Assembly (NCBI RefSeq): GCF_030643825.1
Contig: NZ_CP101717.1
Span: 558,001-622,000 of the forward strand
Direction: 5' to 3'
Length of the DNA: 64,000 nt
Source: Salinispirillum sp. LH 10-3-1
GTDB lineage: Bacteria; Pseudomonadota; Gammaproteobacteria; Pseudomonadales; Natronospirillaceae
Position 1 is the first letter of the stretch. Each line of letters begins with the position of its first letter. Made by a program: the position numbers and the translations under genes. Shown here piece by piece: positions 44,193-58,779 of this stretch. Below the pieces are notes generated by a model. That model worked only from the letters and a program-made list of their open reading frames with translations. It was not told where the DNA came from and did not search any database.

Positions 44193-44217
44193 GATAAAAG
44201 CCTTGCGGCGGACTAGC

Positions 44218-44405
44218 GTAGCGATGTTACAGGGTTGCTTCTAACGGGGCGTTTGCAGCAAGGATGCTGCAAATGAGCCCCCATGGACAAATTCGTCAGG
44301 AACGAATTTGCATGACCAACGGGAGCCCGAAGGGTCAGACGCAGGGATGCGTCTGATAATCGGTTCACGGCGTCCCCGGAAGAAGCAACCCTGTAACATT
44401 GCTAC
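44218..44405. repeat. Modular multi-hairpin inverted-repeat element (copy A)
   Basis: Between the convergent znuB and htpX genes. Outer 25-bp arms (44218-44242 and 44381-44405) pair with one mismatch. Inside are three near-perfect hairpins: 44252-44273 (9 bp, loop AGGA), 44288-44310 (9 bp, loop CAGGA) and 44336-44355 (8 bp, loop GGGA). Conserved boxes: GGGGCG (44246), two GAGCCC words (44275, 44323) and GTTCACGGCGTCCCC (44363-44377). The last box is shared perfectly, in opposite orientation, with the element at 48586. No protein is encoded. Confidence 0.8.
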
Positions 44406-48408: not shown

Positions 48409-48738
48409 CGGAATGCCTTTCGAGTGCTAAAAATCAGATGGGCGCCATTATAGAGTATTGGGGTGCAAATCATAGGTGGGGCGCGAAGTGTCTCCCTCAA
48501 CAAAAAAACTTGGACAACCGCCAAATAATACTCAGGTGACAGCAGTACGCGTAGCCGCTTAAATGCTCCACAGAATAAATGCCGACCTGAGCTGCTAGGA
48601 ACTGATTAGCTTTAGCGGGGACGCCGTGAACACGTGCCTGTGGGCTCGGATGCGACCGTCCAGGTCGCATACGCCCCTTTAAAGCTAATCAGTTCCTAGC
48701 AGTTCAGGCCTGAAGACATACTACACAGGAGATAATCA
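48409..48738. other. Divergent ettA-glyA intergenic region
   Basis: 330 bp. The glyA-proximal part carries repeat element copy B (48586-48708). The ettA-proximal 175 bp show no hairpin or strong promoter that I can defend. No glycine or purine riboswitch fold is recognisable before glyA. Confidence 0.5.
48586..48708. repeat. Modular multi-hairpin inverted-repeat element (copy B)
   Basis: 29-bp arms (48586-48614 and 48680-48708) pair with one mismatch; the inner 23 bp are perfect. Inside are the box GGGGACGCCGTGAAC (48617-48631), identical to copy A in inverse orientation, GGGCTC (48642-48647), a perfect 8-bp hairpin ATGCGACC/GGTCGCAT with loop GTCCA (48650-48670), and CGCCCC (48672-48677). 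The outer arms are unrelated in sequence to those of copy A. It ends 30 bp before the glyA start. Confidence 0.8.
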
Positions 48739-55593: not shown

Positions 55594-56298
55594 TTGTCGA
55601 AGAATGAAGGATTAATTGAGAGTATTGAAGGGAAAATCAAGCGAATTTATGCGCTTGAAGAATCTGTTCGTAAGTACATAAATACAACACGCTACCAAAA
55701 TGATCTGATAAAGAATTCTGATAATTGGAATCAGATCTGTAGCTCGCTTGATACTATAGGAGATACGCTATATTCGCAGCATGACTATTTGAATGCTGAA
55801 TATCCTAATAGCGACGGACTAAAGTACATATTTACTTACGGTCTGCTTCAAGCGCTCTTTATTCAGCAGGACGCAATGCGTCATTTGTCAGAGTCTTTCT
55901 ATATACAGTTTGAATTAACAGACCGTCTCAAAGAAATTCGAACTTTGCGCAACGCCTCAATTGGTCACCCAACCAAGAATAAAGTCAAAGGAACCACCTA
56001 TTACAATTACATATCAAGAATGAGTCTCTCAAAGAGCGGATTTACTTTAATGCGAAGCTTTGACCAAGGAAATGATGAGTTCATTGATGTTGAAATATAT
56101 CCAATAATCCATGATCAATTACAAGATATAGAAGCAAGCTACAAGCTATTGGCAGAGACGCTCGAGGAAGCAGACAGAATGCATAGAGAAAAATACAAAG
56201 ACAGCTTACTCTCAGATATATTCCATTCCTCAATGATATACACGTTCAGTAAAGTAGCGGAAGGTATTCATTCTCCCCATAGCATGAATCGCCACTAG
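55594..56298 (+). pseudogene. Truncated cassette 5 gene, HEPN-like candidate
   Basis: The frame starts with TTG and reads 230 native codons up to 56284; the last four residues (MNRH) and the stop come from the inserted IS-B. The native end and the attC (expected R'' GTATAAC) are missing. The chain is all-helical, with LKEIRTLRNASIGHPTK in the middle. An R-N-x-x-x-x-H pattern of this kind is found in HEPN domains, many of which are RNases in toxin or phage-defence systems. The assignment is tentative. The protein may still be made in shortened form. Confidence 0.6.
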
Positions 56299-56302
56299 CA
56301 TG

Positions 56303-56414
56303 CTAGACACTTTCCAGCCTCTCATTGTAACGCTTCTCATACTCTACCGGTGACAGCAGATCATTGGAATTGTGTCGGCGCACCGGGTTATAAAACAACT
56401 CAATGTAGTCGAAG
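56303..56414 (-). pseudogene. IS-B transposase OrfB, C-terminal piece
   Basis: Minus-strand frame DYIELFYNPVRRHNSNDLL ... ERLESV and stop. Joined to the 57676-58388 piece by removal of IS-A and one AAG copy, the frame is restored as ARVDIF-DYIELFYNP. Confidence 0.85.
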
Positions 56415-58714: not shown

Positions 58715-58779
58715 AGACACCTCTTTTTCAGTCATTTTCTCTAACTGTTAGGTGTCTAGCAAATTAGTGGCGATTCACA

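Follow-up and report, generated by a model that had tools for sequence, protein, structure and literature searches.

What kind of element occupies the gap between the convergent genes znuB and htpX of the marine bacterium Salinispirillum sp. LH 10-3-1, and which of its two strands carries the meaning? The element, copy A, lies in a window of 64,000 nucleotides, the whole stretch of DNA analysed, which corresponds to positions 558001-622000 of the 3.47 Mb single-contig host genome. Our preferred reading, which is probably correct, is that copy A is an enlarged member of the small non-autonomous mobile repeats of gammaproteobacteria, and that its GGA-bearing strand folds during propagation.

Anatomy of copy A

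Inspection confirmed the coordinates, the sequence, the arms, the three hairpins with their AGGA and GGGA loops and the 15-nucleotide box given in the original prediction (Table 1). The arms can be followed over 32 nucleotides with 91% complementarity (44218-44249 / 44374-44405), and their outer 25 nucleotides are perfect apart from G.T pairs. The foot tag is degenerate, with CTATC, CTACC or CTGTC at its position in other copies. Hairpin 1 has a perfect part of 9 bp (44252-44273), and the word GAGCC occurs twice, from 44275 and from about 44323. Copy A folds with -109.7 kcal/mol versus -56.2 +/- 4.5 kcal/mol for shuffled sequences (z -11.9), and the element folds very stably on either strand. 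A sigma-70 promoter pattern was absent at copy A, as was an intrinsic terminator, that is a GC-rich hairpin with a T run, in agreement with the earlier view that this is not a plain terminator.

Table 1. Features of copy A and copy B, in window coordinates
Feature	Position	Strand	Remarks
Copy A, whole element, long (multi-hairpin) form	44218-44405	+	flanked by the convergent genes znuB (+, ends 44192) and htpX (-, ends 44435)
Foot tag CTAGC	44213-44217	+	directly 5' of left arm
Left arm	44218-44242	+	copy-specific sequence
Right arm	44381-44405	+	complement of left arm
Closing helix P1, GGGG	44246-44249	+	partner 44374-44377; covaries in other copies
Hairpin 1 (P2)	44250-44275	+	CG/TG base, stem TTTGCAGCA/TGCTGCAAA, loop AGGA 44261-44264
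AGCC box	44276-44279	+	in short form GCC pairs with GGC 44369-44371 (helix P3)
Extra long-form hairpin	44289-44309	+	8 bp perfect, loop CAGGA
Second AGCC module of long form, GAGCCCGAAGGGT	44323-44335	+	
Long-form hairpin TCAGACGCA-GGGA-TGCGTCTGA	44335-44356	+	9 bp perfect
Conserved 15-nt box GTTCACGGCGTCCCC	44363-44377	+	TTYAC bulge, GGC of P3, GU, CCCC of P1
Copy B, short form	48586-48708	-	core 48617-48677

Copies in the host genome and beyond

The box has exactly one further exact copy in the window (48617-48631, minus strand), where chance predicts 0.21 matches even with two mismatches allowed. This second box is part of copy B, which occupies the gap from which ettA (-) and glyA (+) diverge and has arms of 35 nucleotides with 91% complementarity. 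The search for further copies, proposed together with the original prediction, was successful in the host genome and in relatives. BLAST with copy A as query gave 25 matches in the host genome and box searches added more, while a covariance model (R1), built from 19 short-form cores that were all host-genome copies, found 41 copies there at E<=0.01. Eight copies, copy A among them, have the long form with additional hairpins and a second AGCC module, which covary.

With R1, copies were also found in 25 of 58 genomes of relatives, the host genome counted, and in 37 of 232 gammaproteobacterial genomes. The distribution among relatives is patchy, and some genomes carry near-identical sets of copies. 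A pattern scan of named genomes returned, among the matches listed, almost exclusively Gammaproteobacteria, including Xanthomonas, Stenotrophomonas, Shewanella, Marinobacter, Rheinheimera, Microbulbifer, Yersinia, Methylococcaceae and others.

Core structure and covariation

The stems do covary, which bears out the modular design suggested earlier, with stems that vary and loops and boxes that stay the same. In the pairs of the R1 core, 91.7% of cells are paired and 49 cells show double changes against 14.5 expected, a value reached in 0 of 500 shuffles. Over 179 parsed cores, hairpin 2 occurs with 17 stem combinations, 523 of 528 cells being Watson-Crick; its loop is NGGA in 177 cores, and hairpin 1 contains GGA in 172. 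The GCC/GGC pairing of P3 is exchanged for GCU/AGC three times and for GGC/GCC once. Covariation extends to the extra hairpin of the long form at 44289-44309 (AAATTCGT..ACGAATTT versus AAAAACGC..GCGTTTTT). On the basis of these sequence patterns, we read the core fold as a three-way junction. A pairing of C5G6 with the CG of the box looks inferior to a pairing with the CG before AGCC, where CG/CG, TG/CA and CA/TG co-vary; the latter helix rests on inspection, as the automatic parse misplaced it in many copies.

In Stenotrophomonas L424, L437 and L435 and in L261 (G251, around position 463), other palindromes of about 30-90 bp are located in the hairpin-1 loop, which may be an insertion hot spot. 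In G251 (L257-L276), the core is part of a larger conserved repeat that starts at about TTACTGTGAAAG, ends at about GAACGTTA and is sometimes present in tandem.

Relation to YPAL/RU-2 and Ysr224

The original prediction did not recognise that the element belongs with a repeat already described in Yersinia. The RU-2 sequence as printed has the same core as the host-genome element (PMC2759123), and RU-2 is another name for YPAL, a MITE-like Yersinia repeat for which target duplications of 3-26 bp and filled and empty sites have been reported (PMC2229807). Both share two NGGA hairpins, GAGCC, TTTACGGCGTC and the closing helix, and both are present in many intergenic copies near gene 3' ends. The arms, however, are similar among the Yersinia-type copies seen but copy-specific in the host genome, and copy A has two additional hairpins. 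R1 scored the Yersinia-type copies with 48-61 bits. Thus, the element is a YPAL-type small mobile repeat, and copy A is an enlarged multi-hairpin variant of it. The Yersinia form is already known, and what appears to be new is the wide reach of the element and the evidence for the folding of a single strand. Box strings were also searched in the openly licensed literature, where RU-2 was found and the other matches were mostly unrelated or primers.

The Rfam family Ysr224 (RF02770), of which Y. ruckeri is reported to have several copies (PMC12112432), matches a Yersinia-type locus on the opposite strand with 133.9 bits. The best host-genome copy tested reached 39.0 bits (E 1.3e-5), likewise on the opposite strand and below the gathering cut-off of 70. 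Ysr224 is the opposite strand of the Yersinia YPAL/RU-2. Annotations of Ysr224-type sRNAs would describe a mobile repeat, possibly on the wrong strand. A single superfamily with a defined fold would unite Yersinia YPAL, the orphan sRNA Ysr224 and repeats without annotation from marine, soil-dwelling and plant-associated bacteria.

Plasmids from wastewater, mostly conjugative and belonging to Escherichia, Klebsiella and Citrobacter, carry an unannotated YPAL-like copy with 75% identity, for instance at NZ_CP067312.1:71598-71763.

Arms that differ between copies yet pair within each

Host-genome arms are unrelated between copies, with a mean ungapped identity of 0.32 over 25 nucleotides, and pair over a median of 28 nucleotides. 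In Saccharospirillum and Stenotrophomonas, identical or near-identical cores carry different, matched arms, although the first of these samples was picked for equal core scores and the identity of its cores is partly selected. At one orthologous Stenotrophomonas site at least three arm versions exist, each paired almost perfectly. Such matched versions may result from compensatory selection, palindrome correction or replacement. The unrelated arms of the host genome had suggested inverted target duplications or an element landing in a pre-existing hairpin. Both ideas were rejected; in Saccharospirillum and Stenotrophomonas the arms belong to the element, since the variable segment is flanked on its outer side by conserved tags and outer arm parts.

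Three outward-facing pairs of the host genome (691644/691947, 807416/807634 and 2112383/2112572) have distinctive hairpin sequences common to both members and unrelated arms, and look as if a neighbour had been copied with new arms. In Stenotrophomonas L421, L426, L428 and L432, some alleles resemble fusions of two pair members with mismatched arms, which suggests deletion between palindromes. Apparent empty alleles were observed in Stenotrophomonas and could be deletions, and for the host genome no clean empty site bearing a target duplication was established. An apparent inversion of the element between two species turned out to be an artefact of locus orientation.

Wobble bias points to folding of the GGA strand

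Mispairs within the arms, read on the GGA strand, were G.T in 236 and A.C in 35 cases over three sets (39:8, 50:2 and 147:25). Strand-neutral mutation is expected to give about 1:1, and randomly dealt arms, which represent composition alone, gave 1.14:1. The ratio recurred in separate groups (59:8 and 88:17), and among the controls random hairpins gave 14:12 and GTAG REPs 9:9. A broad, more loosely parsed Stenotrophomonas set is an exception and showed no bias (16:15). The nominal p value of 4e-38 overstates the case, since related copies are not independent. With respect to the nearest gene, the excess was present in sense (45:5) as well as in antisense copies (41:9) and is thus a property of the element. 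This preference for G.T over A.C argues for selection on the GGA strand to fold in single-stranded form, and the proposal that the plus strand of copy A is the meaningful one has held up. The wobble bias provides a testable sign of the strand that folds.

Gene context and possible functions

The GGA loops could mean that GGA-strand transcripts bind CsrA/RsmA, with two to four NGGA loops per RNA engaging a CsrA dimer, and that the copies serve as dispersed decoys or cis-regulatory leaders. We regard this as unlikely. Several observations fit: NGGA is present in nearly all hairpin-2 loops and GGA in most hairpins 1, the GGA strand is the strand selected to fold, and csrA is present in the host and in all six genomes checked. 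In addition, copies close to gene 5' ends in the host genome are mostly sense (9:1), and the TwoAYGGAY family with similar loops is predicted to bind CsrA (PMC4333381). Judged from the sequence, binding of CsrA by the loops is possible. About half of the copies (36 of 71), however, are antisense to the nearest gene, promoters are not enriched on either side of the copies, and CsrA would need neither AGCC nor TTYACGGC. The only RNA reported, Ysr224, is modelled on the opposite strand. In the Rfam scan of the window no family reached threshold, those of the CsrA clan included, and TwoAYGGAY (RF01731, clan CL00106; cut-off 43) had no match in the window or in the tested host-genome loci. The latter RNA likewise has two adjacent hairpins with AYGGAY-type loops enclosed by an outer stem, but differs in its boxes and its junction. 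In an uncultured Shewanella (L178:5643-5780, minus strand), a TwoAYGGAY match of 42.7 bits, just below the cut-off, lies about 350 bp from a YPAL-type core and may represent a sister family.

The copies are intergenic, often as outward-facing pairs within one gap, and many lie 35-70 bp behind genes (core to stop codon). The original prediction of a GGA-bearing 3' UTR, made for znuCB, is unsupported as a general role, since 3'-proximal copies are mostly antisense to the gene next to them, no promoter was found and the invariant AGCC and TTYACGGC boxes come in addition. The ratio of antisense to sense among these copies is 16:5 in the host genome and 20:13, not significant, in other gammaproteobacteria. 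In the host genome, the box end points toward the nearest gene end in 25 of 31 copies within 100 bp, a figure partly inflated because pairs are counted twice, and the trend is weaker and not significant elsewhere. Genes were called simply as longest ORFs.

The location behind genes and the very stable folding of both strands would also suit a role already proposed for YPAL, in which a common hairpin block in the 3' UTR shields upstream transcripts or takes part in their processing; work on YPAL cited in PMC2229807 suggests effects on upstream transcript stability. For this purpose any stable hairpin on either strand would serve, yet selection has settled on one strand, often the non-transcribed one, and the conservation of loops and boxes would be unneeded. 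We consider such a stabilising role very unlikely.

In the mobile-repeat reading, which we prefer, the unit is a long hairpin formed by the arms, with a short tag on its 5' side, which closes on a three-way junction of hairpin 1 and a GCC/GGC helix, the latter with a TTYAC bulge and bearing hairpin 2, both loops being NGGA. A mobilising machinery acting in trans would read this fold, as RNA or as single-stranded DNA, during propagation. The target of selection would be the element rather than the adjacent gene, since the wobble excess is also found in antisense copies, and effects on nearby mRNAs would be secondary. Mobility alone leaves the conservation of the NGGA loops unexplained.

REP/BIME repeats with GTAG or CGTC tags are likewise tagged, intergenic hairpins with many copies and pairs in opposite orientation. 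Our element is far larger and branched, with the tags CTATC, CTGTC or CTAGC, and the REPs tested, in contrast, lacked the wobble asymmetry. None of the Y1/RAYT transposase loci in 16 genomes had an element within about 1.5 kb, and mobilisation by RAYT was rejected for this lack of association. A SINE-like retrotransposition is weakened by the absence of RVT_1 reverse transcriptase matches in the host genome and several element-rich genomes. More speculative, and in our judgement improbable, is a gammaproteobacteria-wide mobile element, one strand of which passes through a stage of folded RNA, or an RNA-guided one, as the element spreads, and whose copy-specific arms are re-matched during copying or maintenance; if true, this would be a bacterial mobile repeat based on structured RNA.

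The window also contains a 33-nucleotide inverted repeat (82%; 56285-56317 / 58745-58777), the two halves of which are 2.4 kb apart and are possibly the ends of another mobile element.
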